Source: Nitrososphaeraceae archaeon
Lineage (GTDB): Archaea; Thermoproteota; Nitrososphaeria; Nitrososphaerales; Nitrososphaeraceae
DNA length: 37,763 bases
Reading direction: 5' to 3'
Assembly: GCA_019246625.1 (NCBI GenBank)
Contig: JAFAQB010000210.1
Location: 1-37,763, forward strand
This document shows, one piece after another, positions 5,619 through 33,189 of the stretch (position 1 is the first letter of the stretch; each line of letters starts with the position of its first letter). A program made the translations under genes and the position numbers. A model generated the notes under the pieces. That model worked only from the letters and a program-made list of their open reading frames with translations. It made no database searches and was not told the origin of the DNA.

Positions 5619-6128
5619 TTACTTTTTACTATTCCTTGATACCCTTTGTGCGCGATGCTTTGTGGGCTTTGCTTCCTTTAGGATAATCTCTTTTTCTTTT
5701 GCTTGGTTTTCTGATGATGGATTGTTGTACTGCTGTTCTAATTGCTGCCGATGTGAGTTATTGGAAGTATGGAACGAAAGTAATGCCCAATCTTCAATCA
5801 AATTGCAATTATTAGGGCTGTAGTCGGATTCAACTGAGCACATGTGCTCTACAGGACAGGTTAAACACGGCACTTGGTCTAGACACCGCGTACTAGCAGG
5901 CAAATGAACAGCAAAAAGTCTATAAGTCCATCGTCCATCCAAGAGAATTTTCTCGCGTTTGATTAGAGAACGCTTCTCAAGTTGCATTGTAAGGCGAGAA
6001 CCATTGCGACTGCTCAGATCAAGCTTCTTCCAAAGTTTGGATTGTAATATTCCATCTTTTCCATTACCAATTATGATCCTAAATGTCTTGTCAGTTAAAT
6101 TTTTCGCCTCAGCTTTACTCAACTTCAA
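5619..6128 (-). CDS. Transcription factor TFE-beta / Rpc39 (RPC34)-like protein
   Basis: A 169-residue homologue of archaeal TFE-beta, related to the RNA polymerase III subunit hRPC39/Rpc34. Residues 1-75 form a winged helix (SKLWKKLDLSSRNGSRLTMQ, then a basic wing ending RWTYRLFAV). Residues 88-108 hold the FeS motif C88-x2-C91-x5-C97-x10-C108 in CLTCPVEHMC...SPNNC, followed by IEDWALL. This is the 4Fe-4S signature of RPC39/TFE-beta. The C-terminus (120-169) is polar, probably disordered, and basic at the end. TFE-beta pairs with TFE-alpha to help open promoter DNA. The start is a TTG at 6126-6128. Transcription is convergent with 4-HB-CoA dehydratase and divergent from rlmE. Confidence 0.85.
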   Translation of the reverse strand: MKLSKAEAKNLTDKTFRIIIGNGKDGILQSKLWKKLDLSSRNGSRLTMQLEKRSLIKREKILLDGRWTYRLFAVHLPASTRCLDQVPCLTCPVEHMCSVESDYSPNNCNLIEDWALLSFHTSNNSHRQQLEQQYNNPSSENQAKEKEIILKEAKPTKHRAQRVSRNSKK

Positions 6129-8450: not shown

Positions 8451-9548
8451 TTAGCAAGAATATATAAATTTTTTCTCAGCCTCCACCAATTTCTCCTTAT
8501 CTCCGCAGTGATAAATTAATTCAGCTAATTTTTTCTGAGGTTTTTCCTCTTTTATAGCAGATCTTGCTATTTCGACTCCTTCCCTAAAGTCTTTTGCAAT
8601 TTTCCCGATCACAAGCGCGGCAGAAGCATTCAAAACTACGATGTCTTCTTTCTCCTGGCTGGCAATGCCATAGATAGATTGAAGGGTATCTCTGATTGAA
8701 CCCTCCTTAGAATATACAAACAGTTGCTCGGGCTTGGCAACCTGTATATTTACGTTATTGGGATGTAGCCGTGTTCGTTTAATTTGCCTTTTGACAAGCC
8801 ATACAATATCGTTTTCACATGTATTAGATAACTCGTCAAAACCATCAAAAGCGTGTATAACCATTGCCTCCCCTGCCAAACCGTTTTCGTATGCGTCTTG
8901 CAAAGCAACAGGAATAGTTTCAAGTAAAGAACGTTCAAAAACACCTACAAGCTGGGCAGAAATATTAGTACAAGGATTACATAATGGGCCAACGATATTG
9001 AATACAGTTCTTATACCTATTGTTTTCCTTGCAGAAGCGGCGTTTCTCATGGCAGGATGAAATCTAGGAGAATAAAGAAAGCCTATGCCAGTTTTTTCAA
9101 TGACTTGTCTAACATTTGCAGGATTAGAATTCAGATCCAATCCAACATATTCTAGAAAGTCAGCGCTACCGCAGTATCCAGAAAAAGACCTATTTCCATG
9201 TTTCGCCACTTTACCCCCGGCTGAGGATGCAACTATCGCTGCAGCGGTACTTATGTTAAATGATTTGATTGCGTCTCCCCCGGTTCCGCAAGTGTCAATT
9301 AATGTGCCATTAACTTTAGGTGTTATTTTTATCGCGTGTTCATTAACAGTTTGAAGAATTGCCTTAATTTCTTCGGCAGTTTCTCCTTTCATTGCAAGAC
9401 CTACCAAAAATGATGCAATTGATGCATCTGAAGCTTCTCCTCGGAGTATTGAATTTACTGACTGACGAATTTCATTTTCAGTTAAATTTATCCTAGAAAC
9501 TAACTTACGAATCACTGGCCCAAGGTCAGCAAAATTTGTGCTGGACAA
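8451..9548 (-). CDS. trpD: Anthranilate phosphoribosyltransferase
   Basis: A 365-residue enzyme transferring phosphoribose from PRPP to anthranilate, the second step of tryptophan synthesis. It has the PRPP glycine loop CGTGGDAIKSFNIST (87-101) and KHGNRSFSGYCGSADFLE (116-133), both diagnostic of TrpD. The start is a TTG at 9546-9548; a GTG at codon 12 is the alternative, and family alignments would place the start anywhere before VIRKLVSRINL. It follows trpG by only 9 bp, so the two are co-transcribed. No trpE or other trp gene is next to the pair in this window. Confidence 0.95.
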   Translation of the reverse strand: MSSTNFADLGPVIRKLVSRINLTENEIRQSVNSILRGEASDASIASFLVGLAMKGETAEEIKAILQTVNEHAIKITPKVNGTLIDTCGTGGDAIKSFNISTAAAIVASSAGGKVAKHGNRSFSGYCGSADFLEYVGLDLNSNPANVRQVIEKTGIGFLYSPRFHPAMRNAASARKTIGIRTVFNIVGPLCNPCTNISAQLVGVFERSLLETIPVALQDAYENGLAGEAMVIHAFDGFDELSNTCENDIVWLVKRQIKRTRLHPNNVNIQVAKPEQLFVYSKEGSIRDTLQSIYGIASQEKEDIVVLNASAALVIGKIAKDFREGVEIARSAIKEEKPQKKLAELIYHCGDKEKLVEAEKKFIYSC

Positions 9549-10364: not shown

Positions 10365-11408
10365 TTGATTAAGGTATTTATAAATGGTTATGGTAACATT
10401 GGCCGGCGGCTTGCCACTGCGCTTTCATCTGATAAAGAAATAGAATTTATTGGCATTGCAAAATATACTGCTGATGACAAAACTAAAGAAGCTTTGGAAA
10501 ATGGATTTGACATTTATGTTCCAAATGGAACTGTAAAACAATTCAAGGATAAGGGCTACGACGTAAGAGGTATAATTTCCGAAGCTATTCTGAAAAGTGA
10601 CATTGTGGTCGATGCTGCCAGAGAAGGTGGCGGGTTTGATAATAAAAAGAACCTGTATGAGCCGATGAATAAGGCGGCTATTTTTCAAGGTGGAGAGGAA
10701 AGGCATGGCGAACGCTCTGTAGCTGATATGATTCATAACTCTCGAGTAAATTATGCAAAGGCAGCAGGCAAAACCTATGTTATTCAGGGTAGTTGCAACG
10801 TCTCAGGTATGGGGAGGATAATGCAGCCCTTAATTGAAAAGTTTGGAGACAAGATAAGAAGATATGATGTTACACTGATCAGAAGGTGGGCCGATCTTGA
10901 GGATTCAAAGGAAATTAAAGATTCTATTGAATGGGATAAAAACCCTCATCATCAGGATGACGTTAAAGATTTCATTCCCACATCTAACCTCTATGTTGAT
11001 GCTTACAAGGTTCCTTCTAGGATGATGCATTTGCACCAAATGGTTATTCGATTTAATGGGAAAGCTCCAAGCAAGGATAAAATAATCGAAACATTTCGTA
11101 CGGAGTTTGGAGTGGCCATACTAAATTCTGCGAAAGGAACAGCTGCAATTAGGAAAAAAGCAATGGAGCTTGGCTTTCAACATGGTGATACCAATATGGT
11201 ACATATACATCAAGAAGTACTCAAAGTTCAAGATGATATAATTAAGATTGCATATTCTGATGATCAAACAGGCATGGTAATACCAGAGAATCATTTGCTA
11301 ATACAATCAATGATATTTAGGCGTCCGAGACACGAAGCAATCAAAAAGTCCGATCGATTGTTTCAAATGACAAAGAAAAGAATGATATTGGAAGAAGAAT
11401 TTGGTTAG
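10365..11408 (+). CDS. gap: Archaeal glyceraldehyde-3-phosphate dehydrogenase (type II)
   Basis: A 347-residue tetrameric dehydrogenase of the archaeal class, interconverting glyceraldehyde-3-phosphate and 1,3-bisphosphoglycerate with NAD(P). The Rossmann start is IKVFINGYGNIGRRLATAL. The active cysteine is C144 in QGSCNVSGMG. The segment RRWADLEDSKEIKDSIEW and the C-terminal MIFRRPRHEAIKKSD are typical of the archaeal class. The start is TTG: the reading MIKVFINGYG matches the family's usual N-terminus exactly and no ATG is available. In ammonia oxidisers it is expected to act mainly in gluconeogenesis. It is divergent from the trp pair. Confidence 0.95.
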   Translation: MIKVFINGYGNIGRRLATALSSDKEIEFIGIAKYTADDKTKEALENGFDIYVPNGTVKQFKDKGYDVRGIISEAILKSDIVVDAAREGGGFDNKKNLYEPMNKAAIFQGGEERHGERSVADMIHNSRVNYAKAAGKTYVIQGSCNVSGMGRIMQPLIEKFGDKIRRYDVTLIRRWADLEDSKEIKDSIEWDKNPHHQDDVKDFIPTSNLYVDAYKVPSRMMHLHQMVIRFNGKAPSKDKIIETFRTEFGVAILNSAKGTAAIRKKAMELGFQHGDTNMVHIHQEVLKVQDDIIKIAYSDDQTGMVIPENHLLIQSMIFRRPRHEAIKKSDRLFQMTKKRMILEEEFG

Positions 11409-13643: not shown

Positions 13644-13940
13644 TCATACACCTAGAATCTGTTTTAGAAGAGCCCTGTAGTCAACATTCTCTTTTGTGCT
13701 CCCCGGTGACGGAAGTTCAAAAATCAGGGGAATTGGCCTCCTTGTCCTTATATCGGTTAGGTTATATCGAATTTTTTTACCTATGTCGTCACTTAAAAGC
13801 ACCAAGCCTACATCATTAGCGCCACCAATCTTGTTAATCTCAGAAAGTGCCTCTGCGGGAGAATCAGCTTTGATCCCTTGAACCCCTGCGAGCTTAAAAC
13901 TCGTGATAAATACACGGCTTCCTATGGCTATGACCCGCAA
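13644..13940 (-). CDS. atpF: A-type ATP synthase subunit F
   Basis: A 98-residue protein of the A/V-type ATPase central stalk (subunit F, NtpG/Vma7 family). The N-terminus RVIAIGSRVFITSFKLAGVQ, the middle DVGLVLLSDDIGKKIR and the segment PIPLIFELPSPGST are the standard subunit F signatures. The start is TTG at 13938-13940, at the expected family position. The other ATP synthase subunits are not in this window, so the gene is separate from them or the operon was split. An IS6-like element sits 54 bp upstream of its start codon, leaving only a short native promoter (TATA-like TTAAAAAG about 31 bp upstream on the minus strand). Confidence 0.88.
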   Translation of the reverse strand: MRVIAIGSRVFITSFKLAGVQGIKADSPAEALSEINKIGGANDVGLVLLSDDIGKKIRYNLTDIRTRRPIPLIFELPSPGSTKENVDYRALLKQILGV

Positions 13941-14050: not shown

Positions 14051-14608
14051 ATGGCCATAGTTCAACGCGAGAGGACATTTGCTGAGATAGTGATGTATGC
14101 TTTGTACTTATATTTCCTAGATTTGAGTTTCAGGAATACAGTTAGAGCTTTAGAACCATTTGCAGAAAGAAGTCACGTAGCAATATGGGAATGGGTACAG
14201 AAGTTTGACCCAAAACAGGTCTATCCATGTAAAAGTAGAGCTGCATTCTTGATTGATGAAACGCAGATGCAAATAGGTGGTAATGAAGCATGGCTTTGGG
14301 TTGCAATCGAACCAATCCATAGATCTATTCTTGGAGTTTATGTCTCAAGACATAGGAATATGCTGGTAGTGGAAGCTTTGCTTAAGTCCTTAATAGAGAT
14401 TTATGATAGACACATAGTATATTCTGATGGTGGTACGTGGTATCCTGAAGCATGTAGTTCTCTAGGCCTTGAACACCGGTTGCATTCATCGTATGAAAAG
14501 AGCCTTATTGAACGAGTTGTAGAGTGTCTAAAGGACAGACCTGAAGGTTTAGATCCATGCATGAAAGAAGAATGTGAATTAGAACATGTCTATAAATGGA
14601 CAGAGTAG
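14051..14608 (+). CDS. IS6-like DDE transposase, possibly cut short at the C-terminus
   Basis: A 185-residue transposase. An N-terminal helix-turn-helix (FRNTVRALEPFAERSHVAIW) is followed by the DDE core: D69 (FLIDETQMQIGG), D126 (VYSDGGTWYPEAC) and E154 (LIERVVECLKDR) with K161 seven residues on. The end reads LEHVYKWTE then TAG. The next codons (FVCFHV, then a second stop) still match the family's usual ending (W-x-x-x-F-V-x-x-H/Y), so the first stop looks like a point mutation removing about the last ten residues. The catalytic triad is intact, so activity is uncertain rather than excluded. Confidence 0.9.
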   Translation: MAIVQRERTFAEIVMYALYLYFLDLSFRNTVRALEPFAERSHVAIWEWVQKFDPKQVYPCKSRAAFLIDETQMQIGGNEAWLWVAIEPIHRSILGVYVSRHRNMLVVEALLKSLIEIYDRHIVYSDGGTWYPEACSSLGLEHRLHSSYEKSLIERVVECLKDRPEGLDPCMKEECELEHVYKWTE

Positions 14609-14706: not shown

Positions 14707-15096
14707 AAAACGAAGACATCATCCTGCTGATTTTGCTTCAAATACCAAAATACTTTCAAACAAATCATCTCTTCGCTATCGCATATAGAAGTACATAGTT
14801 GCAGAAAAGGCAAAAATATTTGTGAAATGATCCGACGGAGAAGAAAGCAGATAAAGTCCATAATGAAATAAACCATCATTAAAGACATCAGAAAAGACAA
14901 AAGCAACTACAATAGCACAACAACTAACTGAACCTATTACTACTGCTGCTGTCAGTCATAATAAAGAAGGCATTGCAACATCCACAAGAGACAAATACAT
15001 TAAAGTATACGTTAAATGAGTAGGAGACAGCCCATGAACACTATCTGATTGTAATAATTGTATTTCTTTTTATAACATGAATATTGTACCATAATA
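14707..15096. other. Intergenic region right of the IS
   Basis: A 390-bp stretch. A frame open for 50 codons without a start codon (14867-15019, ending TSTRDKYIKVYVK) looks protein-like and could be the tail of a lost gene. Nothing else is recognised apart from the promoter at its right end. Confidence 0.4.
15067..15075 (+). promoter_or_regulatory. TATA box of the small membrane protein gene
   Basis: TTTTATAAC centred 26 bp before a TTG start at 15097. It predicts a leaderless message beginning with UUG. Confidence 0.55.
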
Positions 15097-15333
15097 TTGG
15101 CTGCACAGAAAAGACAGCTCAGAATTTTATTTACCATCGCATTGAGCATTGGGGCGCTAGGCATTGTACTCTCCGCGCTGTTGGCGTCATTTGCATTTCT
15201 GATATTTTCAATGCCGAATTTGAGCTTAGCCGCTTTCTTTGGTTACAAGTATTATACATATGATAAAAAAATCCAACAGTATGAAGAGCGAAAAAGAAGA
15301 AGAAGCAACGATAGTAGCAGAAAAAAACGCTAA
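15097..15333 (+). CDS. Small membrane protein with basic tail
   Basis: 78 residues starting at a TTG. Residues 9-51 form two closely spaced hydrophobic helices ([19 protein letters not shown] and [19 protein letters not shown]). A strongly basic cytoplasmic tail follows ([17 protein letters not shown]). No family is recognised. Its stop codon overlaps the stop of the convergent J-domain gene. The basic tail could contact nucleic acid, ribosomes or lipid headgroups; this is only a suggestion from charge. Confidence 0.7.
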
Positions 15334-15761: not shown

Positions 15762-15864
15762 TTTTATTTATCTACCTATTGTTTAATAACTAACACTACA
15801 ACCCGGTAAATAACATTTTTATTAACAATTAACATAATATGGCGTTAAGCGGTTATTCCTGCGT

Positions 15865-16410
15865 TTGGAAGATATTTACTTAATCGTAATATACATTGCA
15901 ATGGTAGGGCCCTCTCTGCTACTAGCAAGGGAAACAAAGAGGAGGCTTTTGAATTTAAAAACCGGAGCTAAGGCACTTATCTTTTTGCCACTAACAGTTG
16001 GCTTGTTAATGATTTATGTTATTTTTGCAAGAAATTTAGTGTCTCAGATCCCGTTGCTAAATCTCTCCTGGCTTGGATACAACATTTCTCTTGGACCATT
16101 TGGCAATGAGGGTCTGTTTGGCATATTACCCTTTCTACCCATGTTAGTATATACGCTAATTCATGTGAATTACTTTGAGGAATTTTACTTTAGAAAAAAC
16201 ACAAAGCGAGTTATACTCTGGGCATTCCTGCATGTCGCCATGGGGGTAGCAATACATGTTGCACTTGTATTGCTTCCGCTTGGATTTTTCTATCGCAGCA
16301 TATATAACAAATACAGTATTAATCATGCGTACGCTCTGCATTTGGCTACAAATTTAGCACTAATTGGAATATCATTTAGTTCATATTTCCTACTACAATC
16401 TGGTTCCTAA
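15865..16410 (+). CDS. CPBP-family intramembrane protease-like protein
   Basis: 181 residues with about five or six membrane helices. Three CPBP (Abi/Rce1-type) motifs are in order: EExxxR at E105-E106...R110 (NYFEEFYFRK), FLH at 121-123 and HxxxN at H159...N163 (HLATN). The paired glutamates and histidines are the catalytic glutamate-protease residues of this family, which cleaves within or near membranes; archaeal substrates are unknown. The start is TTG at 15865 because the upstream ATG at 15839 is out of frame. A TATA-like element about 27 bp upstream predicts a leaderless start. It is divergent from the J-domain gene. Confidence 0.72.
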   Translation: MEDIYLIVIYIAMVGPSLLLARETKRRLLNLKTGAKALIFLPLTVGLLMIYVIFARNLVSQIPLLNLSWLGYNISLGPFGNEGLFGILPFLPMLVYTLIHVNYFEEFYFRKNTKRVILWAFLHVAMGVAIHVALVLLPLGFFYRSIYNKYSINHAYALHLATNLALIGISFSSYFLLQSGS

Positions 16411-20721: not shown

Positions 20722-20731
20722 CTTATATACA
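20722..20731 (+). promoter_or_regulatory. TATA box of the signal peptidase gene
   Basis: CTTATATACA about 30 bp before the TTG start at 20758. Confidence 0.55.
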
Positions 20732-20757: not shown

Positions 20758-21345
20758 TTGTTAGGTAAGGAAAAAAAAAGAAGTTCGAAGGTTCCAATTG
20801 AAATCAAGTGTGTCATAATTGTGATTATTGCCGTCGCAATAATTTGGCTTGGTGTTAGAGCAGTTTTTGGTGTCAATAACCCAGTTTACGTTGTAGCGAG
20901 CGAGAGCATGGTACCCAAACTCAAAGTAGGAGACATGCTGCTCATTAAATATTCTGGCATGGGTTCTGATTCTTCCTCGTTTGACAATTTGAAAATCGGC
21001 GATATTATAGTCTTTGAATCTCCAGGAGTAGTCGAGGATACAGGGCATCGTGAAGTTATTGTACACAGGGTCGCAGAAATTCTGACAGGTTTGCATGGGC
21101 AAAGAATCATCGTAACAAAAGGGGACGCCAATGATGGATCCATTCCAGGGGTTGATTATCCTATTACAGTAAATGATTATAGGGGAAAAGTGGTCTATGT
21201 CATCCCGGGCGTTGGATTAATTGCAAAGACGATAAGCCCTCCAGTAAACTATATCCTTATTGCAATTATTCTAGTAGTACTTTTCTTCTTGCTGCGCAAA
21301 AGAGGAATAGAACAAAGAAAGGAAGGACGACGTCAAGTAGGTTAG
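20758..21345 (+). CDS. Signal peptidase I (archaeal/ER Sec11 type)
   Basis: A 195-residue membrane protease that removes signal peptides from Sec-exported proteins. A hydrophobic segment (17-36) is followed by the catalytic Ser50-Met51 in VASESMVPKLKVGDM, then His103 in IVHRV and Asp123 in TKGDAND. The histidine in place of the bacterial lysine marks the archaeal and ER type (Ser-His-Asp). A second membrane helix closes the C-terminus (LIAIILVVLFFLLRKRG). The start is TTG (MLGKEKKRSS). It lies next to the secreted protein gene, which may be coincidental, as signal peptidase serves the whole cell. Confidence 0.93.
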   Translation: MLGKEKKRSSKVPIEIKCVIIVIIAVAIIWLGVRAVFGVNNPVYVVASESMVPKLKVGDMLLIKYSGMGSDSSSFDNLKIGDIIVFESPGVVEDTGHREVIVHRVAEILTGLHGQRIIVTKGDANDGSIPGVDYPITVNDYRGKVVYVIPGVGLIAKTISPPVNYILIAIILVVLFFLLRKRGIEQRKEGRRQVG

Positions 21346-28566: not shown

Positions 28567-29967
28567 TTATTTAATAGAGATGTTTTCTACTTTTTTCCAG
28601 ATAGTTCTATCTTTGTGATCCATCAGCTCAACAGAGTATTGGTCAAGTAATTTTTTTCTAATATTATCAGAGCTCTGAAATTTCTTCTCAGCCCTCAACT
28701 TATTACGCTTAGAGATTAACTCCTCAATCTCTTTTTTCTCCGCCTCTGTGGCTTCCATCACTTTAAGCCCAAGAATATTTATGAAAATCTTTAAGACTTT
28801 AAGCGCAGCCTGTGACATTGGTTTTGTAAGTCTATCGGCTGCAGCATAGTGATTTATTTCTGCAACAAACTTCATAAGTGCTGTTAGAGCTAATGTTGTA
28901 TTCATATTATCATCCATTGCAGATTGAAACACCTTCATAGATTCATCAGATAATTTTTGTATAGCTTCAAGTTCCCCAGGTTTTTCTCCGTTGGCAAATA
29001 GTAATTCATATACGCACGTCTCTACCTGGCGCCATCTTCGCATGCATTCTGCAAGCAGCTTCTCTGTGTAATCTAGGGGCTTTGAATACTGTACAGAAAT
29101 AGAATAAATTCTCAAGGTATTCATTCCCCAACGATGAAGAGCTTTTTGTATGCTGACAATATTACCAAGTGATTTTGACATTTTTTCAGAATTGGTGGTA
29201 ACCATTCCTGTATGCAGCCATAGTTTGGCAAATTTTTTTTCAGAAAAAGCCTCAGATTGTGCTATTTCGTTTTCATGATGTGGGAAAACCAAGTCATACC
29301 CGCCGCCATGAATTTCAAAGGTACTGCCAAAATATTTTAGTGCCATTGCAGAGCATTCGATATGCCAGCCAGGCCGTCCTTTGCCCCAAGGACTGTCCCA
29401 CAGTGGTGCATCTGAGTAGAACTTCCACAATGCAAAATCCAGTGGATCCTCCTTAGAGGGATCAAGCTCGACCCTGTAGCCTGATTTTAATTCCTCTACT
29501 GATCTTTTGGATAGATTACCATACCCGGGAAAAGACTTTATACGAAAGTAAATGCCATTACTGGAAACGTATGCGTGACCCTTTTCAATTAGCTTTTCAA
29601 TTAAATTGAGCATCTCTTGTATATTCTCAGTTGCACGAGGATATTGATTGGCTCTCAGGATGTTAAGACAGTCGAAATCTTCGAAATAACTATGGATATA
29701 TTTTGCAGCTATTTCTGCCGGTGTTAATCCTTCTTTTTTTGCTCGACTGATTATTTTGTCATCAACATCTGTGAAATTTTGGATAAAGTTTACATTATAA
29801 CCCTTAAAAAAAAGGTATCTACGTAGAACATCGAACAAAATTATCGTCCTTGCGTGACCTATATGTGCATTATCGTAAACTGTGAGGCCACACAAATAGA
29901 TTCGAATAATATTTCCTGGATGATCCAGTTCTTCTACTAATCTTGTAAGGGTGTTATATAGCCTCAA
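28567..29967 (-). CDS. cysS: Cysteinyl-tRNA synthetase
   Basis: 466 residues charging tRNA-Cys. Class I signatures: AHIGHAR (34-40) and KMSKSLGN in the second half. Zinc ligands include C26 (IYLCGLTVYD), the WHIECSAMA cysteine and the HGGGYDLVFPHHENEIAQSE segment. The C-terminal anticodon-binding helices are present. The start is TTG at 29965-29967, just before RLYNTLTR, the family's normal N-terminus. A strong TATA box at 29991-29999 places transcription almost exactly at this TTG. Confidence 0.97.
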   Translation of the reverse strand: MRLYNTLTRLVEELDHPGNIIRIYLCGLTVYDNAHIGHARTIILFDVLRRYLFFKGYNVNFIQNFTDVDDKIISRAKKEGLTPAEIAAKYIHSYFEDFDCLNILRANQYPRATENIQEMLNLIEKLIEKGHAYVSSNGIYFRIKSFPGYGNLSKRSVEELKSGYRVELDPSKEDPLDFALWKFYSDAPLWDSPWGKGRPGWHIECSAMALKYFGSTFEIHGGGYDLVFPHHENEIAQSEAFSEKKFAKLWLHTGMVTTNSEKMSKSLGNIVSIQKALHRWGMNTLRIYSISVQYSKPLDYTEKLLAECMRRWRQVETCVYELLFANGEKPGELEAIQKLSDESMKVFQSAMDDNMNTTLALTALMKFVAEINHYAAADRLTKPMSQAALKVLKIFINILGLKVMEATEAEKKEIEELISKRNKLRAEKKFQSSDNIRKKLLDQYSVELMDHKDRTIWKKVENISIK

Positions 29968-29990
29968 ATTTGATTAATCTGGGGTTTGGA

Positions 29991-29999
29991 TAATATATA
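29991..29999 (-). promoter_or_regulatory. TATA box of cysS
   Basis: TATATATTA on the minus strand, centred about 28 bp before the TTG start. It predicts a leaderless mRNA starting at or beside UUG. Confidence 0.65.
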
Positions 30000-30031: not shown

Positions 30032-30337
30032 CTAAATGTCTAAATATACATCATTTCCCTTTACATCGACTTTATATGTGGTTAGCTTTACACCAGCCAG
30101 ATAGTCTAGCAATTCACCTGTTCTAATATTATAATGCCACGAATGTAAAGGACATTCGACCACCTCGCCATCAATCTCTCCTGGGGCCAATGACCCATCT
30201 TGATGTCGACAAAGTGCCTCTACTGCATAGAATTTACCGTTGGCATGAAATAAAGCTATTCTTGTGCCGCTAACGTTGATTTCTTTTCCTTTTTTGTCGC
30301 CTATTTCAGATTTATGGGCCACTTTGAGCCACGCCAT
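30032..30337 (-). CDS. Small Rieske-type [2Fe-2S] ferredoxin
   Basis: 101 residues from the ATG at 30337 (MAWLKVAHKSEI), the family's usual start. An in-frame extension to 30409 is hydrophobic and unlikely. The cluster ligands are C43-x-H45 (LCRHQDG) and C62-x2-H65 (ECPLHSWH), the pattern of NirD/BphF-type soluble Rieske proteins. It carries electrons; the partner (oxygenase, reductase or other) is not in this window. It lies about 65 bp upstream of cysS on the same strand, but a separate cysS promoter makes co-regulation doubtful. Confidence 0.92.
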   Translation of the reverse strand: MAWLKVAHKSEIGDKKGKEINVSGTRIALFHANGKFYAVEALCRHQDGSLAPGEIDGEVVECPLHSWHYNIRTGELLDYLAGVKLTTYKVDVKGNDVYLDI

Positions 30338-32598: not shown

Positions 32599-33189
32599 TT
32601 GAAAAGGAATATAACAACAACCCGGGGCCTAATGATAGGCCGTTTTCAACCATTCCACAAAGGACATCTTCAGCTCTCAAAGCAAATCCTTAGAGAATGT
32701 AATGAATTAATAATTGCCATCGGTAGTGCCCAATTTAATTACATCTACAAGGATCCATTTACAGCAGGTGAAAGAGTATTGATGATACATGCAGCGCTAT
32801 TAGAATCGGGATTAGATCTTGCAAAATGCTATATCATACCTATTGCAAATGACGAGAATAATGCAAGGTGGCTTGGCCAACTAAAATCTATGGTTCCTCA
32901 TTTTGATGTTTTATACTCGGGCAACGAGTTTGTCAAAGTTCTAGCACAACAACAGCCGATCCGAGTCAAAAAGCCATTTTTCTCAAAAAAAGATGATTAT
33001 AATGGGACAAACATTCGTAGGCACATGGCAGCAGCTGCTTCTGTTATATCCTCGACGAAACCAAGAAGAAAAAGTCAAAATTGGAAGAGATTAGTTCCAA
33101 ACGCTGTTTCCAGATTAATAGAGGAAATAGATGGAGTCAATAGAATTAAGATACTTCTAAAATCAGACAGCAATCCGCAACGGTGGTGA
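32599..33189 (+). CDS. nadM: Nicotinamide-nucleotide adenylyltransferase
   Basis: 196 residues making NAD from NMN and ATP, archaeal NadM type. The nucleotidyl-transfer motif is GRFQPFHKGH (14-23), and the second signature NGTNIRRHMA matches the family's GTxIR motif. The start is TTG at 32599, six bases after metG, which fits re-initiation by ribosomes finishing metG. The C-terminal 30 residues are basic. A mini zinc-ribbon gene follows after 4 bp, so metG-nadM-ribbon look co-transcribed. Confidence 0.94.
   Translation: MKRNITTTRGLMIGRFQPFHKGHLQLSKQILRECNELIIAIGSAQFNYIYKDPFTAGERVLMIHAALLESGLDLAKCYIIPIANDENNARWLGQLKSMVPHFDVLYSGNEFVKVLAQQQPIRVKKPFFSKKDDYNGTNIRRHMAAAASVISSTKPRRKSQNWKRLVPNAVSRLIEEIDGVNRIKILLKSDSNPQRW

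Follow-up and report, generated by a model that had tools for sequence, protein, structure and literature searches.

UUG start codons and TATA box placement in a Nitrososphaeraceae archaeon and its relatives

Several genes in a 37,763-nucleotide stretch of archaeal DNA (hereafter the window) appear to begin with TTG, and an earlier note proposed that some of their messages start at or next to this codon. The locus raises two questions: whether UUG is a genuine start codon in these archaea, and where transcription starts relative to it. The window is contig C75 of a 3.96 Mb genome in 461 contigs. It has a GC content of 37% (33% in a sample of the genome), and its archaeal genes encode a TFB-like factor, a 4-hydroxybutyryl-CoA-dehydratase-like protein, TrpG/TrpD and V-type ATPase subunit F, several of them named by eye. 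Rfam gave no match within the window. Comparisons were made within a family set that spans 12 genera and, counting the window's genome, 70 genomes. Two relatives with a GC content of 52–53%, G043 and G026, were used for scans of whole gene sets, and unambiguous start columns were compared among the window's genome, G043 (0–800 kb) and G026 (400 kb).

UUG as a start codon

The nine genes for which TTG had been put forward as the best start encode cysteinyl-tRNA synthetase (cysS), TFE-beta, TrpD, Gap, AtpF, a small membrane protein (15097–15333, hereafter the 15097 gene), a CPBP protein, signal peptidase and NadM (Table 1). In all nine open reading frames, TTG is the first possible start past the upstream in-frame stop. 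Relatives fix the start column for six of them (cysS, trpD, gap, atpF, CPBP and the 15097 gene), leave signal peptidase and nadM unsettled, and agree for TFE-beta at the protein level only. The relatives' start column holds a start codon for all six and for the Rieske-type gene upstream of cysS. Most family alignments of signal peptidase start at residues 5–23 and most of those of NadM at residues 3–10; in one relative (L021), the nadM start lies about five codons further in. In Pfam, the TFE-beta-like gene has a weak MarR match only and the CPBP gene, which keeps the name given in the earlier note, has none at E 0.001. The 15097 gene has a match in 27 of the 70 genomes, its own included.

Table 1. 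Features of the window discussed in the text; offsets of TATA boxes are relative to the start codon
Feature	Positions	Strand	Remarks
TFE-beta-like gene, TTG start	6126..6128	-	alignments from residue 1–2 in 45/64 genomes with a match
trpD, TTG start	9546..9548	-	ATG at same column in G043; 9 nt past trpG stop
gap, TTG start	10365..10367	+	TTG at same column in G043
atpF (V-type subunit F), TTG start	13938..13940	-	ATG at same column in G043; Pfam PF01990
15097 gene, TATA box	15067..15076	+	-30, 9.6 bits; by eye also at -30 in G043
15097 gene, TTG start	15097..15099	+	TTG at same column in G043
CPBP gene, weak TATA-like box	15834..15843	+	-31, 3.6 bits; G043 has, by eye, a TATA-like run at about -31
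CPBP gene, TTG start	15865..15867	+	TTG at same column in G043, 61% identity
Signal peptidase, TATA box	20722..20731	+	-36, 8.0 bits; predicted leader about 6 nt
Signal peptidase, TTG start (not settled)	20758..20760	+	Pfam PF10502; N-terminus poorly conserved
cysS, cysteinyl-tRNA synthetase	28567..29967	-	Pfam PF01406, E 4e-122
cysS, TTG start	29965..29967	-	same protein column in 30/30 family loci
cysS, weak TATA-like box	29990..29999	-	-32, 3.9 bits
Rieske-type ferredoxin gene, upstream of cysS	30032..30337	-	Pfam PF00355
nadM, TTG start (not settled)	32599..32601	+	6 nt past metS stop

TTG accounts for 21/81 unambiguous starts sampled in the window's genome; the corresponding figures are 43/210 for G043 and 38/171 for G026. 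By these samples UUG is an ordinary start codon in the family, predicted at about one-fifth to one-quarter of genes (20–26% of unambiguous starts). AUG/non-AUG status also tends to be kept between the window's genome and G043: among 46 strict pairs, defined by no similarity upstream of the start and with possible false starts at conserved residues ignored, it is shared more often than expected (23 + 13 shared, 5 + 5 changed; p 0.0005). The comparisons indicate that the UUG starts of the window's archaeon and its relatives are mostly real.

Two neighbouring observations concern other genes. The window's genome contains a second TFE-beta-like match (G000:C271:2082-2450, 45% identical), and an open reading frame near atpF, at 14051–14608 of the window, has by eye the look of a DDE-type transposase.

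TATA box spacing differs with the start codon in relatives

The position weight matrix used to score TATA boxes was trained exclusively on G043 genes with ATG or GTG starts, with no TTG genes in the training set. All in-frame codons around gene starts were scanned, every other codon serving as the control, which in G043 is flat at about 0.3–0.4% per position at a 6-bit threshold. The matrix was fitted twice, and the counts from the two fits differ slightly.

TTG starts in G043 are enriched for TATA boxes at positions -35 to -31 (38/523 versus 438/25085 for other codons; ratio 4.2, p 1e-12) and show no excess at -30 (2/523 versus 80/25085, p 0.5). GTG starts, in contrast, show a one-position spike at exactly -30 (16/491; ratio 10, p 4e-11), and the boxes of ATG starts spread over about -36 to -28. 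Pyrimidine-G is found at the start codon in 16 of 17 of the -30 GTG sites (first matrix fit, G043). Since the GTG spike lies at -30 and mostly has a pyrimidine before the G, we set the zero-leader distance at -30. TTG genes carry a pyrimidine-purine step at 30 or 31 nt from the start of the TATA box in 35 of 79 cases, versus 127/484 at 18–28 nt (p 0.001). Of the two placements in the earlier proposal, 'next to' UUG thus agrees with the excess upstream of -30 in G043, and 'at' UUG is not supported by the same scan, where GTG has the -30 peak and TTG does not.

The difference between TTG and GTG spacing has a p value of 1e-6 in G043 and 0.04 in G026; for first starts only, the corresponding Mann-Whitney values are 0.33 and 0.0005. 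None of the 15 TTG-associated TATA hits at -35 to -30 in G026 falls on -30. Among the 210 comparatively fixed starts of G043, 11 TTG starts have a TATA box of at least 5 bits at -38 to -27, and all 11 boxes lie at -35 to -32. Ten G043–G026 pairs in which one or both members start with TTG pass a filter for conserved TATA spacing, seven of them at -36 to -32. Shine-Dalgarno-like 4-mers in G043 occur upstream of 5/39 TTG first genes, 13/103 ATG first genes and 11/25 ATG operonic genes; the motif is rare in first genes.

The signal is weaker in the window's own genome. With the G043 matrix, 18/359 TTG codons have a TATA box at -35 to -31 versus 413/15364 controls (p 0.01), and 4/359 have one at -30 versus 69/15364 (p 0.09). 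A matrix trained on this genome holds little information (2.4 bits) and gives a TTG peak that is not significant (23/359 versus 786/15364, p 0.16, and 5/359 versus 177/15364, p 0.4). TTG and GTG spacings do not differ (4 and 20 versus 1 and 6, p 1.0), and simple motif counts on a first gene-call showed only a faint TATA signal at ATG starts and no clear one at TTG starts. A purine occupies -1 in 17/20 TTG genes with a TATA box at -35 to -31; a slightly different cut gives 16/22 versus 25/39 other TTG genes, a small contrast. Because the TTG signal is weak in this AT-rich genome, the promoter claim rests on the relatives.

Near-leaderless placement of the TATA box, with a predicted start within 5 nt of the codon, is seen genome-wide for TTG in G043 and at the Rieske gene; in the window it is strong only for the 15097 gene. 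The earlier note had described TATA-like boxes 26–28 bp upstream of cysS, the 15097 gene and the CPBP gene. The geometry is right for all three, and the 15097 box alone is strong. There, a pyrimidine-purine step ends at -1 (TA before TTG), and transcription may start one base upstream of the codon. The other named genes are varied. A TATA box is found only at -50 for gap, which would make its message leadered, and none was found at -36 to -27 of atpF in the matrix scan. TFE-beta has a 4.4-bit site at -28 and stronger boxes at -44 to -48. trpD and nadM lie so close to the stop codons of trpG and metS (Table 1) that both are read as operonic.

cysS and the Rieske gene

Protein similarity in cysS begins at one common column in all 30 family loci, where the codon is TTG in 15, GTG in 13, ATG in one and ATT in one. 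The ATT (L182, in G064) has an in-frame stop three codons upstream and may be a genuine AUU start or reflect an error in the assembly. The start is thus non-AUG in 29 of the 30, and ATG is the codon nearest that column in 67 of 78 aligned loci from a wider search, mostly bacterial; the wider contig search returned mostly bacterial loci, with L021, L022 and L027 the only ones that are thaumarchaeal by title. The TTG/GTG state (28/30 family loci) could be considered a candidate regulatory feature. Many of the 70 genomes also encode another CysRS-like protein, shorter at about 390 residues and with 25–41% identity, e.g. at G000:C153:5603-6628; it is possibly an MshC-like ligase.

The promoter evidence points elsewhere for cysS itself. 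A TATA box of at least 5 bits lies at -36 to -27 in only four of the 30 loci and is not conserved. In 24 of the 30 loci, cysS follows the Rieske stop codon at a distance of 12–64 nt, and the Rieske gene has its own TATA box in nearly every locus. These features make us lean towards reading cysS as the second cistron of a Rieske–cysS transcript, in which the UUG would be internal and unrelated to leaderless initiation. The window itself fits this less well, since its intergenic gap is 64 nt and holds the weak box at -32; L188 carries an 8.7-bit box at -33, and the gap is at least 110 nt in six loci. On balance, cysS appears to be a poor example of a near-leaderless UUG gene, among the weakest.

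The clearest candidate is instead the Rieske gene. By comparison, its start in the window is an internal ATG (30335–30337), where relatives often have TTG. Of 33 loci tried, two lay too near a contig edge; the 31 readable ones have TTG in 16, ATG in 14, including the window, and GTG in one, and L021 appears to be a duplicate of L168. The best TATA box of the TTG loci lies at -37 to -30 in 16/16 and at -34 to -32 in 14/16, with a purine at -1 in 15/16. L022 and L027, which by name lie outside the family and by name and identity outside the main genus, are among these TTG loci; because most of the others belong to one genus, the independent TTG events are few.

A proposed reading and its relation to known systems

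The best explanation of these data is, we are fairly confident, that UUG is an ordinary start codon, that UUG messages with their own promoter start on a purine 1–5 nt upstream of it, and that GUG is 5'-terminal. Judging from sequence, transcription would begin some 30 nt from the initial T of the TATA box, at a purine preceded by a pyrimidine. At a GUG start, the G itself would be the initiating purine and the mRNA would have no leader. A UUG start offers no purine, and since the polymerase needs one as its first base in the proposed reading, it would begin 1–5 nt upstream and the message would read (N1-5)UUG. The ribosome and initiator tRNA would load at the triphosphate 5' end and take the first start codon, as in Saccharolobus solfataricus. 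UUG genes lacking such a promoter (trpD, nadM, gap and probably cysS) would be second cistrons or have longer leaders. A more far-reaching version, to which we give slightly less than even weight, is that start codon and transcription start are locked together: GUG would be exactly leaderless with G first, UUG would carry an obligatory purine-first leader of 1–5 nt, the two classes would have been kept apart over long evolution, and UUG would serve as a near-leaderless start of full competence, in contrast to haloarchaea.

The earlier note allowed, for some genes, that the U of UUG is the first base of the message. The 15097 gene, with its box at the zero-leader distance, would fit such a case, as might the 4/359 TTG codons of the window's genome with a box at -30 (p 0.09). 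The pyrimidine-purine step of the 15097 gene nevertheless ends at -1, which would allow a start one base upstream, and neither G043 nor G026 has a -30 excess for TTG, yet GTG does have one; strictly leaderless UUG is accordingly improbable. A more general objection is that TTG and TATA-like runs are so common at 33–37% GC that both starts and promoters have been over-read. Indeed, 10-nt stretches of the window reach 4 bits with the G043-trained matrix 14% of the time, and the scan with the genome's own matrix was not significant. Against this stand the start columns conserved across genera and the strong signal in relatives at 52–53% GC over a flat control of other codons. We regard chance as an improbable explanation overall and, as far as the UUG starts are concerned, as largely refuted.

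The proposed reading, in which UUG follows a short purine-first leader, resembles what is described for S. solfataricus. In that organism, 69% of messages are leaderless, all three start codons are used at any leader length, and messages with 0-nt leaders avoid UUG, a bias that the authors attribute to polymerase signals (PMC7531240). Near-leaderless genes are likewise common there, with little Shine-Dalgarno signal in first genes (PMC7531240, PMC11698992). The 5' ends are mapped in that organism, whereas ours come from sequence and comparison. Haloferax volcanii also has abundant leaderless messages and rare Shine-Dalgarno motifs, but AUG dominates there (PMC4983044, PMC3986360), and in the present archaea UUG is frequent beside the predicted 5' end. 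For Haloferax, the earlier statement of a strong preference for AUG in leaderless initiation does hold: UUG showed no activity in the single leaderless construct examined, and GUG begins 6% of leaderless transcripts (PMC4983044, PMC3986360). A change from AUG to UUG is described as disfavoured across prokaryotes (PMC5622118).

Among the literature matches listed, in a search that largely excluded subscription papers, none dealt with this lineage's leaderless messages or its transcription starts. In mycobacteria, 5'-terminal non-AUG (GUG) starts are reportedly used widely in leaderless initiation, on a bacterial promoter and ribosome that set that system apart; to our knowledge, UUG does not feature there. 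Near-leaderless UUG would thus be a variation on initiation known in other archaea, apparently undescribed in this lineage, and the predicted addition to the known kind is promoter spacing that depends on the start codon. The Haloferax-derived rule that near-leaderless UUG is inactive should not be applied to this archaeal group, and start-site prediction for these archaea could exploit TATA spacing with separate offsets for GTG and TTG. At the Rieske gene, the start alternates among AUG, UUG and GUG while its column stays fixed and the promoter nearly unchanged, and this locus offers a natural test set for the effect of the start codon on near-leaderless translation.

A further feature of the Rieske locus is a conserved element, ATATTTAG(G/A)TGTGGCG or a close variant, that lies a few tens of nucleotides upstream of the TATA box in 14 of the 29 loci L162–L190 and in L021. 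No other occurrence of the pattern turned up in the samples of G043, G026 and the window's own genome, and the element is possibly an operator.
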